Of a stretch of DNA of 17,677 nucleotides, positions 8,402 to 17,155 are shown in pieces. The first letter of the stretch is position 1, and each line of letters opens with the position of its first letter. The stretch covers positions 1-17,677 of the forward strand of contig LKUE01000013.1 in NCBI GenBank assembly GCA_001412365.1, written 5' to 3'. The position numbers were made by a program, and so were the translations under genes. The notes beneath the pieces are model-generated. The model did not search any database, was not told where the DNA came from, and was given only the letters and a program-made list of their open reading frames with translations. The DNA comes from Desulfuromonas sp. SDB. Lineage in GTDB: Bacteria > SDB-A.

Positions 8402-8663
8402 CTTCTCTCTTGCGGTATAGTACAATTTTCCTGCCAATTAACTGCACAACTTGTGAATTTGTCTTATCTGCAATAAGGTCAGCGCAATCTCTGCAGTCCA
8501 GGGGGCAGTTCCTGCCCACTGCTATTTTAATAAGTTCTCTTGCTTTTAAAGCCCGGTCAATTTCTGACAGAAATATATCAGTAATTCCCATTTTACCAAT
8601 GGTGAAAATGGGCTGCACCTTCATCGCTTTAACCATGAGTTCCCTTCTTAACTTTTTATCCAT
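8376..8663 (-). CDS. yhbY: YhbY/CRM-domain RNA-binding protein
   Basis: This 95-residue protein is a single CRM domain, an RNA-binding fold associated with 50S precursor particles in bacteria. It contains the key loop I-G-K-M-G-I-T (22-28, the GxxG-type RNA-contact loop), then [10 protein letters not shown] and the closing [12 protein letters not shown]. Cys residues at about 53, 57 and 60 (C-P-L-D-C-R-D-C) are unusual for this small family. The start forms a TAATG junction with the stop of the lysine-ketoglutarate reductase gene, so translation is coupled. It sits in a run with smpB and murI, and the association of yhbY with smpB makes sense as ribosome assembly and rescue. Confidence 0.88.
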
Positions 8664-9976
8664 TAAACATTTTCCTCCGGTAAATATTCCCGAAGATGGT
8701 CATAGGGAGAAGTCAGCAATCCCTGGTGGGCAATTACTGCCTTTTTCAACTGATCAGACAGACTTAACTCTTCTAATTTTTTTTGATAATCAACTTTAAC
8801 CAGGTCCGGGATTAAATTAACCAGTACATGGCTAAACGCACCCGATGATTCAACCGGTAACTCACTGGGCAAAATATCGTTTGCCAGTACTACCGGACCG
8901 TGACCTTTGACTCCGTCAACTGTTTTTTGCAGTTGAGTATCAAAAACATAGACAGGATTGTCTGCTGAAGTAACCTTGGTATTTATTTCAATACCCCCTT
9001 CAATATCACAACTTATATCCCCAATGACCTGAAGTTTAGGCTCCGGCTGCTGATATAATCTAATGACCTGTTCCCTGGTAACAAGCCGGGGGTATCTTTC
9101 ATCCCAATAAGAACCATTTATAATGACATTTAATTTATCCAGGTACTTATCAAAAACACCACGGTATTTCTGGGGATAATCGTAGTATTCCTGCAGGTCG
9201 AATTCACCGGGATTATTAATATTTTCCACCAGGTCATATTCATGAAAAACGGTGGTGATGAAGTGATGATCAGACCAGGAATCAGGTGATTCCAGGATTG
9301 CTTCCGGTTTAACTCTGATTTCCGGAAGTAAGGATATTATCTCCTGAGCTCCTTCTGATACATGGCCGTAGCCTACAAAAGCAATAATCAGAGGTTTTAA
9401 ATTATCACTTATCCCACCCTCTGCAATTTTATTGCCAATGTGGTGGATATGCTGCTTTGCCTGGTTAAGGTTGTCATATTCCCAAGCCCGTTTAACTTCT
9501 ATCAGGGGGCTGTTCATTCCCAAATAAGCCAGGCGTTGTCCTAACCCCCACAGAGTATCAATAGCGCCGGCTAGACCAGCATAATGCCCAAAAAAGATCA
9601 GCCGTTGTCCTTTTGTATTGGAAATCAATTCATAGTCAATTAAAGTTATCTTTTTTGACAATATTTTCTTAAGCATGGGCATGTTGTAAGACTGACCTTT
9701 GATAGTATGGGAAAAGAACAGATAAACCTTATCTTCCAGCAATAATTCAGGTTTGACTTCCTTAATCCCTAAAATAATATCTGCAGGGGACAGATCATCT
9801 ACAATTTGAGCCCCCGCTTTTTTATATTGATGCTCTGGGAATATCCGGTATTCAGAAGGCTGCACCATAATTTTATAACCTTGAGCAGTTAATTTTTCCA
9901 CATCCTCAGGGATTAAGGGAGCGCGTTTCTCCCACAAGCCTTTATCTTCTCTTCTCATTCCAATTATTTTATCCAT
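8663..9976 (-). CDS. Lysine-ketoglutarate reductase (saccharopine-forming), LOR/SDH family
   Basis: This 437-residue protein matches the N-terminal half of animal and plant AASS/LKR-SDH, which joins L-lysine and 2-oxoglutarate into saccharopine using NADPH. Visible landmarks are the alanine-dehydrogenase-like N-domain (R-R-E-D-K-G-L-W-E-K-R-A-P-L, 8-21), F-F-S-H-T-I-K-G-Q (87-95), I-D-Y-E (113-116), F-G-x2-A-G-x-A-G (129-137), the nucleotide-binding loop V-G-Y-G-H-V-S-E-G-A (201-210), I-N-G-S-Y-W-D-E-R-Y-P-R-L-V-T (286-300) and I-G-D-I-S-C-D-I-E-G-G (318-328). The saccharopine-cleaving domain that is fused in eukaryotes is absent. GAGGAG lies six bases before the ATG. The gene follows the BatE-like gene by nine bases and shares an operon with the ALDH7-type gene, which supports lysine catabolism. 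Confidence 0.88.
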   Translation of the reverse strand: MDKIIGMRREDKGLWEKRAPLIPEDVEKLTAQGYKIMVQPSEYRIFPEHQYKKAGAQIVDDLSPADIILGIKEVKPELLLEDKVYLFFSHTIKGQSYNMPMLKKILSKKITLIDYELISNTKGQRLIFFGHYAGLAGAIDTLWGLGQRLAYLGMNSPLIEVKRAWEYDNLNQAKQHIHHIGNKIAEGGISDNLKPLIIAFVGYGHVSEGAQEIISLLPEIRVKPEAILESPDSWSDHHFITTVFHEYDLVENINNPGEFDLQEYYDYPQKYRGVFDKYLDKLNVIINGSYWDERYPRLVTREQVIRLYQQPEPKLQVIGDISCDIEGGIEINTKVTSADNPVYVFDTQLQKTVDGVKGHGPVVLANDILPSELPVESSGAFSHVLVNLIPDLVKVDYQKKLEELSLSDQLKKAVIAHQGLLTSPYDHLREYLPEENV

Positions 9977-10620: not shown

Positions 10621-12147
10621 TCAGTCTTTTATAAATTCAATGCCTTGAGCCAGAGGAAGCTCTTCACCGTAGTTAATGCTAACTGTCTGCCTTCTCATAT
10701 ACCCTTTCCAGGCATCTGAACCGGATTCTCTTCCTCCTCCTGTTTCTTTTTCTCCTCCGAACGCACCGCCGATTTCCGCTCCGCTGGTGGATGTATTGAC
10801 ATTAGCAATACCGCAATCACTTCCCTGGGCAGAAAGGAATTTTTCAGAATATCTAAGGTTATTGGTAATTATTGCTGAAGATAATCCTTGAGGGACATCA
10901 TTGTGATATTGCAGTGCTTCTTCCACAGAGGATACCTTCATAACATAAAGAATTGGCACAAATGTTTCTTCTTTGGTGATGGGAGCTCCTTTTTCAATTT
11001 CCACGATGGTAGGTTCAACATAAAAACCTGGATTATCTACAACCTTGCCTCCCTGGATGATCTTTCCATTCTGAGTTTTTATCTTATCTAAAGCATGGAG
11101 GTATTGATCCACCGCCCCCTGATTAATTAAAGGTCCGCAGGTGGTTTTCTCATCCAGGGGATCCCCTATTACCGTCCACTGCTGATAAGCCCTGATTAAT
11201 TTATCCATAAACTGATCATAAATTTTTTCATGGAGAAAAATTCTCCGGGTAGTTGTACATCTCTGTCCGGCGGTTCCCACCGCCCCAAAAAATATTGCTC
11301 TCCGGGCGATTTCCAAATCTGCATCTTCCATCACTATTGCAGCATTATTACCGCCTAATTCCAGAATTGTTCTTCCCAATCTTGCCGCAACTCTCTGCGC
11401 CACTTTTTTCCCGGTGGGAATTGAGCCAGTAACACTGACCATGGGAATCCTGATATCATCACTCATTTTATTGCCCACCAAACTACCCGCTCCCACCATC
11501 AAAGCGATAATGTCAGGATAACCCTGTTCGGTGATAACTTCAGATACAATGCGATGAGTGGCAATGGCGGTGAGAGGAGTCTGGGAAGAAGGTTTCCACA
11601 ACACAGTATCTCCGCAAACCAGAGCAATCATGGCATTCCATGCCCAAACTGCTACCGGAAAGTTAAATGCGGTTACCACCCCCACTGGTCCGATAGGAAG
11701 CCACTGTTCCAGAATTCTATGCTGCCGGCGTTCTGACTGCAAAGTGGGACCGGAAAGAGATCGGGATAAACCTACTGCATAATCAGCAATGTCAATCATC
11801 TCCTGAACTTCTCCCAGTCCCTCCTGGATTATTTTACCGCATTCCAAGGTTACTAATTTCCCCAATACTTCCTTGTTTTCTCTAAGCTTGAGACCGATTT
11901 TTCTTACCAGTTCTCCCCGTTCCGGTGCAGGGACCATCCTCCATACCTGAAAAGACTGCTGAAGTGACTGAACCGCCTGTTCATAGTCTTGTTCAGTGGC
12001 TAAACTTACCGAAGCTAATACCTGCTGGTTGGCTGGATTTAAAGACTTAATTGTCTGTTTTCCCTGAGCACTCACCCATTCCCCTAACTTATAGGAAACA
12101 CCGCTATTTAACTCAGAAATGCCAATCTTTTTCAGTACATCATTCAT
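10621..12147 (-). CDS. Alpha-aminoadipic semialdehyde / piperideine-6-carboxylate dehydrogenase (ALDH7 family)
   Basis: This 508-residue enzyme closely follows ALDH7A1 (antiquitin) and bacterial AmaB, which oxidise alpha-aminoadipic semialdehyde, the open form of piperideine-6-carboxylate, to alpha-aminoadipate with NAD+. Catalytic elements are F-N-F-P with Asn162, K-P-S-S for cofactor binding (185-188), Glu263 in L-E-L-G-G-N-N and the nucleophile Cys297 in G-Q-R-C-T-T. ALDH7-specific stretches are G-S-D-C-G-I-A-N-V-N, S-G-A-E-I-G-G-A-F-G-G-E-K and a C-terminal L-P-L-A-Q-G-I-E-F. GGAGG is seven bases before the ATG. It heads the leftward transcript with a BatE-like gene and LKR behind it, which strengthens the lysine-degradation assignment. 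Tandem 11-base repeats lie just upstream. Confidence 0.9.
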   Translation of the reverse strand: MNDVLKKIGISELNSGVSYKLGEWVSAQGKQTIKSLNPANQQVLASVSLATEQDYEQAVQSLQQSFQVWRMVPAPERGELVRKIGLKLRENKEVLGKLVTLECGKIIQEGLGEVQEMIDIADYAVGLSRSLSGPTLQSERRQHRILEQWLPIGPVGVVTAFNFPVAVWAWNAMIALVCGDTVLWKPSSQTPLTAIATHRIVSEVITEQGYPDIIALMVGAGSLVGNKMSDDIRIPMVSVTGSIPTGKKVAQRVAARLGRTILELGGNNAAIVMEDADLEIARRAIFFGAVGTAGQRCTTTRRIFLHEKIYDQFMDKLIRAYQQWTVIGDPLDEKTTCGPLINQGAVDQYLHALDKIKTQNGKIIQGGKVVDNPGFYVEPTIVEIEKGAPITKEETFVPILYVMKVSSVEEALQYHNDVPQGLSSAIITNNLRYSEKFLSAQGSDCGIANVNTSTSGAEIGGAFGGEKETGGGRESGSDAWKGYMRRQTVSINYGEELPLAQGIEFIKD

Positions 12148-13303: not shown

Positions 13304-13780
13304 ATGATAGATTTAATCTATAATTTCGATAAGCTGGATAATTTTGATGATTTGCTTCCTGAAAATGTTGAAATAGCATTTACCAATGGTTGTTATGATA
13401 TATTACATTCAGGACATGTCAGTATTTTCAAGTACTGCAAAACTTTAGCTGATTTTGTGGTGGTTGGAATAAACAGCGATACCTCGGTAACCCGATTAAA
13501 AGGACTTCTCAGACCTATTGTTGATCAACAACAACGGGCTCAAGTTGTTGCCTCGGTAAGATATGTGGATATGGTGGTGATTTTCTCAGAAGATACCCCC
13601 TATAACCTGATCAAGGCAGTTCAGCCTGATTATCTGGTCAAAGGAGGAGACTACCAGGAATCAGAAGTAGTGGGACATGATTTGGTTCCCCATACAAAAA
13701 TTTTTCCCCTTATAGAAAACTTAGGAACTACAAATATTGTTGAAAAGATTGTTCATAGATACTGTAAAAAGGAGTGTTGA
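13304..13780 (+). CDS. rfaE2: Heptose 1-phosphate adenylyltransferase (HldE C-terminal domain type)
   Basis: This 158-residue nucleotidyltransferase transfers AMP to heptose 1-phosphate, giving ADP-heptose. It shows the family motif T-N-G-C-Y-D-I-L-H-S-G-H-V (27-39) with the H-x-G-H pair at His35 and His38, then G-I-N-S-D-T-S-V (56-63), L-K-G, R-P-I-V-D and R-A-x-V-V-A-S-V-R-Y-V-D, and the later K-G-G-D-Y. In E. coli this activity is fused to the kinase as HldE. Here the two are separate adjacent genes, as in many diderms outside the Gammaproteobacteria. AGGA precedes the ATG. The stop overlaps the start of the next gene as TGATG. Confidence 0.9.
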   Translation: MIDLIYNFDKLDNFDDLLPENVEIAFTNGCYDILHSGHVSIFKYCKTLADFVVVGINSDTSVTRLKGLLRPIVDQQQRAQVVASVRYVDMVVIFSEDTPYNLIKAVQPDYLVKGGDYQESEVVGHDLVPHTKIFPLIENLGTTNIVEKIVHRYCKKEC

Positions 13781-14085
13781 TGAGAATTAAAAAACATCCC
13801 ATTCTTGAATTTCCTGTTAAAAAGAAAATCGAATTTTATTTCGAGGATAAAAAATTAGAAGCCAGAGATGGAGAATCAATTGCCGCTGCATTAATTGCCA
13901 ATAACATCAGAATTTTTCGTTTCTCTGAAAAAAAACAACGTCCCAGAGGTTTATACTGCGCGGTGGGGAAATGCGCCAGCTGTTTGATGGAAGTTGACGG
14001 CAAGCCCAATATTATGACCTGTATAACCCCGGTTAAACAGGGAATGAAAGTGAAAAGACAAAAAGGGCGGGGTGATCTGATATGA
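13780..14085 (+). CDS. 2Fe-2S subunit of a flavin amino-acid dehydrogenase complex (HcnA/SoxA N-terminal type)
   Basis: A 101-residue 2Fe-2S protein of the Fer2_4 type. The cysteines stand in a C-x4-C-x2-C-x12-C pattern (C-A-V-G-K-C-A-S-C and a later M-T-C). The upstream part has the ubiquitin-like beta-grasp sequence typical of HcnA and the N-terminal domain of sarcosine oxidase alpha subunits. It should pass electrons within the complex encoded by the next four genes. AAGGAG lies five bases before the ATG at 13780; the in-frame GTG and TTG just upstream are within the binding site. The start overlaps the rfaE2 stop, and the end overlaps the next gene by four bases (ATGA). Confidence 0.85.
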   Translation: MRIKKHPILEFPVKKKIEFYFEDKKLEARDGESIAAALIANNIRIFRFSEKKQRPRGLYCAVGKCASCLMEVDGKPNIMTCITPVKQGMKVKRQKGRGDLI

Positions 14086-15179
14086 TCAGAAAAGTACAAA
14101 TGGCAGTAATCGGAGGAGGTCCCGCCGGTTTGTCTGCGGCAGTAGCTGCAGCCAGTCAAGGAGTGACTGTGGAAATCTTTGACGATAATTTCATCCCCGG
14201 AGGACAGCTAATTAAACAGACTCATAAATTCTTCGGAGCAAAGCAGCATCTGTGCGGAACCAGGGGAATGGATATTGCCCAAATTCTCTTAGACCGGTGC
14301 ACCCAGCATAACGTCATCATCAATCAACAGGCAACAGTAACCGGAGTTTACGCAAACACTTTAGGAGTCCTCTATCCTGATAAATTTGAAGAAGTGGAAT
14401 TTAAGAGTTTAGTAGTGGCTACCGGCGCTTCTGAAAACATGATTAGATTTGTCAACAACGAATTACCGGGCATTTACGGGGCAGGAGCAATACAAACCCT
14501 GATGAATGTATTCGGGATCAGACCAGCACAGAATGTTTTAATGGTGGGTTCAGGCAACATAGGATTAATTGTCTCCTACCAGTTAAAGCAGGCTGAAGTA
14601 GAGGTTGAATGTATTGTGGAAGCCCTTCCCCAGGTGGGCGGTTATCAGGTACACGCTTCTAAAATTCAAAGAATGGGTATACCTATACTCACCAATCACA
14701 CTATTATCCGGGCAGAGGGCAATGAACAGGAAGGAGTCACCGGAGCAATTATATCTGAAATTGACAAAGATTTCAGACCAGTGCCGGGGACAGAAAAATA
14801 TTTATCTGTAGATACAATCTGTTTAGCAGTAGGATTAACTCCTCTGGCTGATCTCCTGGAACAATGTGGATGCAAAATGACTACCATCAGTGAACTTGGA
14901 GGCAGAGTGGCAGTTCACAATCACTACATGCAGACTTCACGACCTGATGTATTTCTGGCGGGAGATGTCAGCGGAATTGAAGAAGCGGTAACTGCCACCC
15001 TGGAAGGACAGCTGGCCGGTTTGGCTGCTGCTAAATATATGAACATCGGCAATCCCCTGATCATACAAAATAAGATGAATGAAATCCTGATTCAGCTCAA
15101 TGAATTCAGGGACGGTCCTTTTGGAGAAAAAGCTACTTACGGTTCACAAAGATTGCTGAAGGAGTACTCTTATGAGTGA
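14082..15179 (+). CDS. FAD/NAD(P)-binding subunit of the dehydrogenase complex (HcnB / proline dehydrogenase alpha type)
   Basis: This 365-residue two-dinucleotide-binding flavoprotein has an N-terminal FAD motif V-I-G-G-G-P-A-G-L-S-A-A (9-20), P-G-G-Q-L (39-43), A-T-G-A (113-116), a second nucleotide motif M-V-G-S-G-N-I-G (154-161), and the FAD-contacting L-A-G-D-V-S-G near the C-terminus. It resembles HcnB, the octopine oxidase subunit OoxA and the alpha subunit of archaeal dye-linked L-proline dehydrogenase. Those relatives are usually longer and often carry a C-terminal BFD iron-sulfur domain; here that domain is a separate gene at 15691. It overlaps its neighbours by four and eight bases. 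The natural electron acceptor is not evident from sequence. Confidence 0.85.
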   Translation: MIRKVQMAVIGGGPAGLSAAVAAASQGVTVEIFDDNFIPGGQLIKQTHKFFGAKQHLCGTRGMDIAQILLDRCTQHNVIINQQATVTGVYANTLGVLYPDKFEEVEFKSLVVATGASENMIRFVNNELPGIYGAGAIQTLMNVFGIRPAQNVLMVGSGNIGLIVSYQLKQAEVEVECIVEALPQVGGYQVHASKIQRMGIPILTNHTIIRAEGNEQEGVTGAIISEIDKDFRPVPGTEKYLSVDTICLAVGLTPLADLLEQCGCKMTTISELGGRVAVHNHYMQTSRPDVFLAGDVSGIEEAVTATLEGQLAGLAAAKYMNIGNPLIIQNKMNEILIQLNEFRDGPFGEKATYGSQRLLKEYSYE

Positions 15180-15681
15180 AGATCAAAACAATTTAAACCA
15201 TTCAACTATACCGGAATTTTTAACCGATATTTTGCCCCCGGAAGAAAGAATATTAAAAAGACCGGTGGCAATCATTGAATGTTTTCAAGAAATTCCCTGT
15301 AACCCCTGTGTGGATTCATGTCCCCAGAATGCAATCAGTATAGACGAGGGTATAAATCGTATACCCCAAATTGATTATGACCTTTGTACCGGATGCACCC
15401 TGTGTGTGCCTAAATGTCCCGGCTTGGCAATTTTTGTGGTGGGAGTAGATAAAGAAGATAAAACCAAAGGCAGTGTAACTATTCCCTATGAATTTAATGA
15501 TCTTCCCCAAATAGGCGAAGAAGTTATAGGGTTGAACCGCCAGGGTAAACCAGTTACTCCAGCTGTAGTGAAAAAAGTGATTGTAAGTAAAATTACCGAT
15601 AAAACTGCAGTAATAACTTTATCACTGCCATCTGAATTTATCCATGAAGTAAGATTCTTTAAAAGACAATCAAGTAAATGA
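15172..15681 (+). CDS. Dicluster 4Fe-4S ferredoxin subunit
   Basis: A 169-residue subunit with a central ferredoxin domain. The second cluster has the normal spacing C72-x2-C75-x2-C78-x3-C82-P. The first is unusual, C37-x5-C43-x2-C46-x3-C50-P. After it there is a C-terminal beta-rich extension (about 95-169) of unknown role. Its place between the FAD subunit and the BFD subunit, with an eight-base overlap upstream and a nine-base gap downstream, marks it as the electron-carrying ferredoxin of the complex, comparable to the PdhF subunit of archaeal four-subunit L-proline dehydrogenase. No membrane segment or signal peptide is present, so it is cytoplasmic. Confidence 0.85.
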   Translation: MSEDQNNLNHSTIPEFLTDILPPEERILKRPVAIIECFQEIPCNPCVDSCPQNAISIDEGINRIPQIDYDLCTGCTLCVPKCPGLAIFVVGVDKEDKTKGSVTIPYEFNDLPQIGEEVIGLNRQGKPVTPAVVKKVIVSKITDKTAVITLSLPSEFIHEVRFFKRQSSK

Positions 15682-15690
15682 GAGGAATTG

Positions 15691-16008
15691 ATGAAAGACG
15701 ATATAATTATCTGCAGATGCCAGGATGTAACTGAACAGGAAATTGTTGACGCTATAAAAAAATACAATCTTTCCACTGTAGATGAGGTAAAAAGAGTGAC
15801 CAGAGCAGGCATGGGGCACTGTCAAGGCAAAACCTGCCGGAAACTGGTTGAACAGATTTTAAGCAGAGAATTAAGCAGACCGGTAAGCGCTGACCAGTAT
15901 ACAACCTTACGTCCTCCCACCAGGGCAGTACCTCTTGATTTATTGGCAAATGCTGAGCAATCCTTTGATAAGGTGGTATCCAGAGGAAGAGGTGGGCATA
16001 ATGAGTAA
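15691..16008 (+). CDS. BFD-like 2Fe-2S subunit of the dehydrogenase complex
   Basis: This 105-residue protein begins with a BFD-type iron-sulfur domain. The cluster cysteines are C8-x-C10 (I-I-C-R-C-Q-D-V) and C44-x4-C49 (G-M-G-H-C-Q-G-K-T-C), the usual arrangement. The remaining 50 residues are a linker ending in R-A-V-P-L-D-L-L. In HcnB and OoxA this domain is the C-terminal part of the FAD subunit, so here the gene looks like a split-off piece with its own start. The ATG at 15691 has GAGGA four bases upstream, better placed than the in-frame TTG before it. It overlaps the next gene by eight bases. Confidence 0.87.
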   Translation: MKDDIIICRCQDVTEQEIVDAIKKYNLSTVDEVKRVTRAGMGHCQGKTCRKLVEQILSRELSRPVSADQYTTLRPPTRAVPLDLLANAEQSFDKVVSRGRGGHNE

Positions 16009-17155
16009 TCTTCCCAAAACTGCAGAGTTGGTAATTATTGGAGGAGGAGTAATAGGGACCTCTATCGCTTATGAACTTGCCAAAAGAGGGATGAAAGATA
16101 TTGTGCTGGTAGAGGGAGATACTATTTCCTCGGGTAGTACCGGACGCTGCGGAGGAGGAATTAGAGCCCAATGGTCAACTCCGGAAAATGTAAGATTGGC
16201 TATGGCTTCAGTGGAGAGATTTAAAAGCCTGGAATCCGAGCTGGAAACTGAACTGGAATTTGAGCAGGGTGGTTATCTGATTCTGGCTCATTCTGATCAG
16301 GAACTACAGCAATTTGAAAGCAATGTTAAGATGCAGAAGTCCTTAAATCTTGATGTTGATTTGATAACCCCTTCTCAAGCTAAGGAAATTGTTCCCAGTC
16401 TTAATATTGAAAAAATTACCGGAGCCACCTGGTGTCCATCCGACGGATCAATAAATCCCTTTTTGCTGAATTTTGCTTATGCCCGGGCAGCCAGGCAAAA
16501 AGGAGTCAAGATATTTCAGCACACCAAAGTTATTGGAATTGAACATAAAGCCCAAAAAATAACCGGGATTAATACTGACCAGGGCAAAATATCCACTAAT
16601 CAACTGGTTAACGCTGCAGGGGGCTATGCCGGTTTTATCGGCAAACTGGCAGGATTAGATCTCCCCGTAGTTCCCCACCGCCACGAAATTTTAGCTACTG
16701 AACAAATTAACCGATTTTTTAAAAATATGATAATGTCTTTTGAGTACAACTTGTATTTCCGTCAGGTCATGGATGGAGGGATCGTAGGCGGTCAAACCAA
16801 TCCGGGGGAATTACCCGGAACTGACATAAAATCCGGGCTGACTTTCCTCAAGGAAATGTCGGTTAAATTAACTCATTTCATACCAAAATTAAAACAAGTT
16901 AAAGTAATCCGCCAATGGGCAGGACTTTACTGCACTTCCCCTGATGCTCAACCTATACTGGGGAAAATTGAGAATTTAGCAGGATACTATCAAGCCATAG
17001 GATTCTCCGGCCACGGTCTTATGCTGGCTCCCCGCACTGCAGTATTGATGGCTAATTGCATTGCGGATCCGGATTTTCAAGATGAAGATTTATCCCGTTT
17101 AAATCTGGACAGATTTAAACATGGGATAGTCAGCGGAGAAAGATCAGTAGTATGA
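16001..17155 (+). CDS. DAO-family FAD-dependent amino-acid dehydrogenase subunit (HcnC / PDH beta type)
   Basis: This 384-residue flavoprotein of the D-amino-acid oxidase/glycine oxidase fold should be the substrate-oxidising subunit. It shows V-I-I-G-G-G-V-I-G-T-S (11-21), E38 for the ribose, G-S-T-G-R-C-G-G-G-I-R (45-55), and near the C-terminus R-Q-W-A-G and G-F-S-G-H-G-L-M-L-A-P, typical of sarcosine oxidase beta, glycine oxidase and dye-linked L-proline dehydrogenase. The G-R-C-G-G-G-I-R stretch is most like the proline dehydrogenase beta group. The substrate is probably a secondary or imino amino acid (proline, sarcosine, pipecolate, saccharopine or similar), which sequence cannot decide. 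The ATG at 16001 gives the normal N-terminus; an ORF start at 15935 lies inside the previous gene. It overlaps rbfA by four bases. Confidence 0.88.
   Translation: MSNLPKTAELVIIGGGVIGTSIAYELAKRGMKDIVLVEGDTISSGSTGRCGGGIRAQWSTPENVRLAMASVERFKSLESELETELEFEQGGYLILAHSDQELQQFESNVKMQKSLNLDVDLITPSQAKEIVPSLNIEKITGATWCPSDGSINPFLLNFAYARAARQKGVKIFQHTKVIGIEHKAQKITGINTDQGKISTNQLVNAAGGYAGFIGKLAGLDLPVVPHRHEILATEQINRFFKNMIMSFEYNLYFRQVMDGGIVGGQTNPGELPGTDIKSGLTFLKEMSVKLTHFIPKLKQVKVIRQWAGLYCTSPDAQPILGKIENLAGYYQAIGFSGHGLMLAPRTAVLMANCIADPDFQDEDLSRLNLDRFKHGIVSGERSVV

Follow-up and report, generated by a model that had tools for sequence, protein, structure and literature searches.

What does an iron-sulfur flavin dehydrogenase oxidise when each of its domains is encoded by a gene of its own, and where might its electrons go? 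The question is raised by a stretch of 17,677 nucleotides from Desulfuromonas sp. SDB (contig LKUE01000013.1, hereafter the window), in which five tightly packed open reading frames (ORFs) at 13780-17155 on the forward strand encode, in order, a Fer2 protein, a Pyr_redox protein (PYR), a dicluster ferredoxin (FER4), a BFD protein and a DAO-family protein. An earlier reading of the bare sequence (the original prediction) had proposed five separate genes in this order, with the BFD domain unfused; the ORFs lie as proposed, and Pfam confirmed each of the domains (Table 1). Judging from sequence comparison, we consider it probable (about 0.7) that the five genes specify one oxidoreductase complex, a bacterial L-proline dehydrogenase of the alpha-beta-gamma-delta (PDH2) type with Fer2 as a separate chain.

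Relationship of the DAO subunit and the case for proline

Among solved structures, the DAO subunit comes closest to PH1364, the beta subunit of Pyrococcus L-proline dehydrogenase (1y56_B; E 5.9e-83, 41% identity), a comparison with the beta chain of PDH1, not with that of PDH2. In a maximum-likelihood tree the two form a group with WOR-3 rows and the relative L096 (support 94/85). The original prediction had named placement within a well-characterised enzyme group as grounds for abandoning it, and such a placement was found in part, with moderate support. The likeness it had seen to the archaeal four-subunit L-proline dehydrogenase is upheld by this grouping, by a frequent neighbouring gene and by the absence of the classical enzyme, both described below.

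When one genome per species was scanned with the ferredoxin gene as sole query, 80 loci were returned, 63 of which held all five genes inside the fetched stretch, mostly in identical order. Adjoining the operon in 19 of these 63 is a gene for 1-pyrroline-5-carboxylate (P5C) dehydrogenase (P5CDH; TIGR01236, a representative scoring far above cut-off), and genes for hydroxyproline dehydratase, its activase and proline racemase lie near a few operons. Genome-wide gene content was judged by family searches. The window genome encodes two aldehyde dehydrogenases (ALDHs): the one in the window is of the piperidine-6-carboxylate type, and the other, a P5CDH, is at a different locus (L100; 772 bits, cut-off 613.6). 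Classical proline dehydrogenase (PRODH, PF01619) was absent from the window genome and from 54 of 54 genomes searched, with controls matching; PRODH/PutA membership was rejected on this absence and because the window proteins match other families. The family search found no further strong DAO-family protein in the window genome. The relationship of the DAO subunit, the partner-gene association and the absence of PRODH together make L-proline the likely substrate.

Several points weigh against this assignment. The group that holds PH1364 contains long branches and is not starred in the tree, P5CDH is no neighbour of the operon in the window genome, and the one-to-one orthology of FER4 and BFD with PdhF and PdhX of the archaeal PDH2 is presumptive. 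Furthermore, BjOpnDH2 lies near archaeal L-ProDH and yet does not use proline (PMC4575208), and closeness in the tree is therefore no proof of substrate. A complex of the same type might act instead on a different secondary amine or imino acid, such as sarcosine, dimethylglycine, N-methylproline, an opine, D-proline or D-hydroxyproline, which we hold to be unlikely, if well short of negligible. In its favour, D-hydroxyproline, nopaline or octopine serves as substrate for homologous DAO subunits (PMC4575208), some operons of the wider family adjoin genes for MttB methyltransferase and BCCT transporter, and soxB is the nearest profile, though at 190.6 against a cut-off of 529; the association with P5CDH, the P5CDH of the window genome and the absence of PRODH argue for proline, as does the grouping of the DAO subunit with L-ProDH and not with NoxB or SoxB.

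Pipecolate was considered as well, since the piperidine-6-carboxylate dehydrogenase gene 1.6 kb upstream on the opposite strand (10621-12147) could serve as partner; its score of 731.7 just exceeds the NF050084 cut-off of 730. However, the nearest relatives (DAO 66% identical) are without any ALDH, the gene is missing from the same place in locus L009, and it is accounted for by an adjoining lysine-ketoglutarate reductase together with a saccharopine-dehydrogenase-like gene elsewhere. A pipecolate dehydrogenase is thus very improbable, and pipecolate as main substrate was rejected on the ALDH-less relatives and the lysine-route explanation.

Cofactors and subunit models

The four Fe-S clusters of the original prediction are well founded. 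The ligands are C60-x4-C65-x2-C68-x12-C81 in Fer2 (four cysteines 100% conserved in 78 aligned sequences), C37-x5-C43-x2-C46-x3-C50 and C72-x2-C75-x2-C78-x3-C82 in FER4 (eight invariant in 47) and C8-x-C10-x33-C44-x4-C49 in BFD (four 100% conserved in 79). All 16 cysteines are thus invariant over 47 to 79 relatives, well above chance expectation, and four clusters are therefore expected. The first 4Fe-4S motif of FER4 is invariant but of atypical spacing (C-x5-C-x2-C-x3-C). The AlphaFold model of FER4 has a pLDDT of 88; a fold search with this model against solved structures gave no significant match for the C-terminal barrel, only weak and mixed ones.

The claim of two flavin subunits holds insofar as flavin adenine dinucleotide (FAD) is expected in both DAO and PYR, but the count is probably short by one flavin. 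An Arg-x-Trp motif that contacts flavin mononucleotide (FMN) has been described for the DAO/Pyr_redox dehydrogenase superfamily (PMC4575208), and R304-Q-W306 of the DAO subunit, 98% conserved in aligned relatives, corresponds to it; an FMN contacted through these residues is likely to lie between DAO and PYR. PYR has a second Rossmann motif, GxGxxG at 156-161, that is 96-100% conserved in aligned relatives and from which the aligned segment of PH1363 differs. 1y56_A (Z 25.1, root-mean-square deviation 2.8 over 287 residues) is one of many relatives that the PYR model matches, others being the alpha subunit of sarcosine oxidase and the large subunits of Nfn.

Comparison with characterised complexes

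PDH2 of Thermococcus profundus and T. litoralis (pdhA, pdhF, pdhX, pdhB) is a dye-linked amino-acid dehydrogenase complex of the kind proposed here, and its gamma and delta chains are separate and encoded between the Pyr_redox and DAO genes, just as the two small chains FER4 and BFD are in the window. In T. litoralis the alpha-gamma-delta-beta genes are consecutive within a proline cluster, an order taken from gene numbers (PMC4364671). The window also has, as judged against PDH1 beta, a DAO-family beta chain near archaeal L-ProDH. The Fer2 part is where the two diverge: L-ProDH alpha carries it at the N-terminus (PMC4575208), whereas here it is a fifth chain; a fused form occurs in L096. We speak of a five-chain variant because Fer2 has its own gene.

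The alpha4-beta4 enzyme of Pyrococcus horikoshii (PH1363/PH1364, 1y56) has the same Fer2, Pyr_redox and BFD parts and shares the Arg-x-Trp FMN motif. In PH1363, however, these parts form one chain and there is no dicluster ferredoxin, whereas the window has three genes for them and a Fer4 gene besides, and the operon is accordingly not of the PDH1 type. OdhABC, HcnABC and D-hydroxyproline dehydrogenase resemble the window in having separate Fer2, Pyr_redox and DAO chains and in FAD, FMN and [2Fe-2S]. Membership among them was rejected, as the window has five chains and its BFD is not on the alpha chain; the Ti-plasmid loci of this group that were inspected contain no dicluster ferredoxin gene, and Ti-plasmid DAO proteins take another position in the tree. 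Finally, SoxBDAG has homologues of window subunits in its DAO beta chain and in three parts of SoxA (Pyr_redox, Fer2 and A3), but the operon has neither a SoxD gene nor a fused SoxA. Heterotetrameric sarcosine oxidase was rejected also on profile scores (TIGR01373 190.6 bits against 529.45; TIGR01372 fragments only).

Distribution and gene fusions

Hosts of the five-gene loci belong to Bacillota, Synergistota, Thermotogota, Spirochaetota and WOR-3. The original prediction had implied that the arrangement is novel; its uniqueness is ruled out by the 63 of 80 loci with all five genes, and the fully unfused set is in fact the commonest state, found in 48 of the 68 five-part loci that were surveyed for fusions (loci from additional genome searches included). 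The operon represents an already known kind of enzyme and has a wide distribution. Fusions took the form of FER4+BFD (14 loci), PYR+FER4 (4), FER2+PYR (1) and all four non-DAO parts (1), such that DAO is a separate chain in every fused form and each other part is joined to a neighbour in some genome. Since the parts fused in some genomes are adjacent ones, assembly into one complex is supported. A plasmid search with the ferredoxin yielded one large fused Parabacteroides protein.

Partial sets were also encountered. In WOR-3 and Hydrothermota metagenome-assembled genomes (MAGs), FER4-BFD pairs stand at L062 10004-10769, L071 9742-10507 and L087 1327-2128, and neither Pyr_redox nor DAO was recognised within the fetched stretch. 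In Edwardsbacteria and related MAGs (L010 8505-18776, L017 7782-18788, L043, L028), Fer2, Pyr_redox and ferredoxin are several kb from BFD and DAO, the intervening kb encoding DUF6754 and unnamed predicted membrane proteins, or BFD and DAO are unseen. The profile libraries searched give the gene set no name, the top NCBIfam matches being far under cut-off, and a literature search, with most subscription papers outside its reach, found no description of a bacterial five-gene proline dehydrogenase.

Electron route and acceptor

In the five-chain proline dehydrogenase proposed here, the FAD-containing DAO subunit would oxidise L-proline to P5C, and the electrons would travel through an FMN where DAO and PYR meet and through the clusters of BFD, Fer2 and the dicluster ferredoxin to the FAD of PYR, which would pass them to a final acceptor, either nicotinamide adenine dinucleotide (NAD) or a ferredoxin-like carrier. 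P5C would then be converted to glutamate by the P5CDH encoded at a separate locus. The potential of the proline/P5C couple is about -120 mV, and reduction of ferredoxin or NAD with proline alone is therefore uphill. The transfer to a low-potential carrier, or the bifurcation, that the original prediction suggested would likewise have to work against this gradient if proline were the only donor. Because the GxGxxG motif of PYR is intact, NAD reduction, with or without the assistance of ferredoxin, is possible.

A further reading, which can coexist with a PDH2-type proline dehydrogenase, is electron bifurcation or confurcation in which proline oxidation is coupled to both ferredoxin and NAD. The invariant dicluster ferredoxin, the conserved NAD-type GxGxxG, the resemblance of the Pyr_redox model to Nfn large subunits besides PH1363, and the RnfC-type and FeFe-hydrogenase-like proteins found by family searches of the window genome, which are consistent with an anaerobe living on ferredoxin and NADH, can all be cited for it. 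However, very many thioredoxin-reductase-like proteins have the same fold resemblance, the archaeal relatives are described as dye-linked dehydrogenases only, and proline by itself is unable to reduce ferredoxin; we regard such coupling as improbable. If anything less probable again is the specific case of a confurcating enzyme in which, owing to the extra dicluster ferredoxin, proline and reduced ferredoxin jointly supply the electrons for NAD reduction, although it would accord with the conserved NAD-type site, with the invariant ferredoxin and with the presence of RnfC-type and hydrogenase-like genes. Were it true, anaerobes could oxidise proline without quinone.

AOR genes at the position of P5CDH

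A further 14 loci have, at the downstream position where P5CDH otherwise stands, an aldehyde ferredoxin oxidoreductase (AOR), a tungsten enzyme, usually accompanied by a ferredoxin of ~130 residues; those in which an AOR of ~700 residues is so accompanied include L015, L019, L029 and L033. AOR and P5CDH never occur together at one operon (p = 0.003, or p = 0.03 for the nine ~700-residue AORs only), and among closely related Desulfosporosinus operons some have AOR and others P5CDH. Genome-wide (n = 52), P5CDH was present in 29, ~700-residue AOR in 22 and the two together in 6 where 12 would be expected (Fisher p = 5e-4), in a test whose AOR threshold was set post hoc from scores, with kinship uncorrected and the MAGs incomplete. 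This anti-correlation suggests replacement. Within the family of the window genome, G001 and G002 encode an AOR but lack ALDH, whereas the window genome itself encodes P5CDH and lacks AOR; both enzymes are present in G003, which does not carry the five-gene operon. On these sequence comparisons the ~700-residue AOR may oxidise glutamate semialdehyde; our literature search found no description of an AOR acting with that compound or P5C. The adjacent AORs at L042, L051, L053, L055, L070 and L072 are shorter or cut off, some of them adjoining MttB/BCCT genes, and these six may serve another aldehyde, e.g. formaldehyde.

Two further forms of AOR were seen in passing. In two Syntrophomonadaceae MAGs from similarly named soda-lake-type samples (G072, L132 121-5333; G070, L134 4941-10153; both reverse strand), the ~700-residue AOR is split at the AFOR_N/AFOR_C boundary into a chain of 1065 residues with AFOR_N, NuoE-like and NuoF-like parts and a second of 671 residues with Fer2, 4Fe-4S parts and AFOR_C. 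Between the two genomes the chains share 77% and 85% identity, and the inserted parts have their closest relatives in chains B and A of 9mqx, an electron-bifurcating tungsten enzyme. In G081 (L133 22-2712, reverse strand) an in-frame insertion of ~120 residues near residue 468 brings the AOR to 896 residues, and G080 and G086 have the same insertion-bearing AOR.

Operon layout and genomic surroundings

Table 1. Subunits encoded by the five-gene operon of the window.
Subunit	Length and features	Position	Strand	Family match
Fer2	101 residues; one [2Fe-2S] expected	13780..14085	+	Pfam Fer2_4 E 1.3e-29
Pyr_redox (PYR), alpha-type	365 residues; FAD expected; second NAD-type Rossmann motif	14082..15179	+	Pyr_redox_2 E 3.1e-32
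Dicluster ferredoxin (FER4)	169 residues; two 4Fe-4S motifs, C-terminal beta-barrel of ~80 residues	15172..15681	+	Fer4_7 E 2.4e-9
BFD	105 residues; one [2Fe-2S] expected; unfused	15691..16008	+	Fer2_BFD E 2.3e-17, SO_alpha_A3 E 5.3e-13
DAO, catalytic, beta-type	384 residues; FAD expected; likely L-proline oxidising	16001..17155	+	DAO E 1.1e-73

The operon is embedded among housekeeping genes, with rfaE1 and rfaE2 before it and rbfA after. The rfaE2 stop and Fer2 start have one base in common, the overlaps are 4 bases at Fer2/PYR, 8 at PYR/FER4, 8 at BFD/DAO and 4 between the DAO stop and the rbfA start (17152), and a gap of 9 bases separates FER4 from BFD. A longer Fer2 from a GTG at 13774 is possible; the ATG has a good Shine-Dalgarno sequence, AAGGAG, upstream. 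At L009, from a WOR-3 MAG, the series of gene sizes around the operon matches that of the window. L009 and G002, of the same family as the window genome, are apparently one genome because their AOR places are identical.

Also in the window, on the reverse strand at 8663-9976, is the lysine-ketoglutarate reductase gene (E 1.5e-76 to human-type AASS, 8dda); the saccharopine-dehydrogenase-like gene is at L104 517-1857 (reverse strand) of the same genome. Together with the ALDH they suggest, as far as homology goes, a saccharopine route of lysine breakdown in an apparent anaerobe.

Significance

The analysis supplies a likely function for a gene set found widely among anaerobic bacteria without PRODH. 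Its interest stems mainly from the question of the acceptor and from the interchange of AOR and P5CDH. A 2026 classification of tungsten enzymes gives defined roles in just five of 92 clades (PMC13328260), and the interchange suggests a physiological role for a clade of these enzymes, while the electron acceptor of anaerobic proline oxidation becomes testable in cultured hosts.

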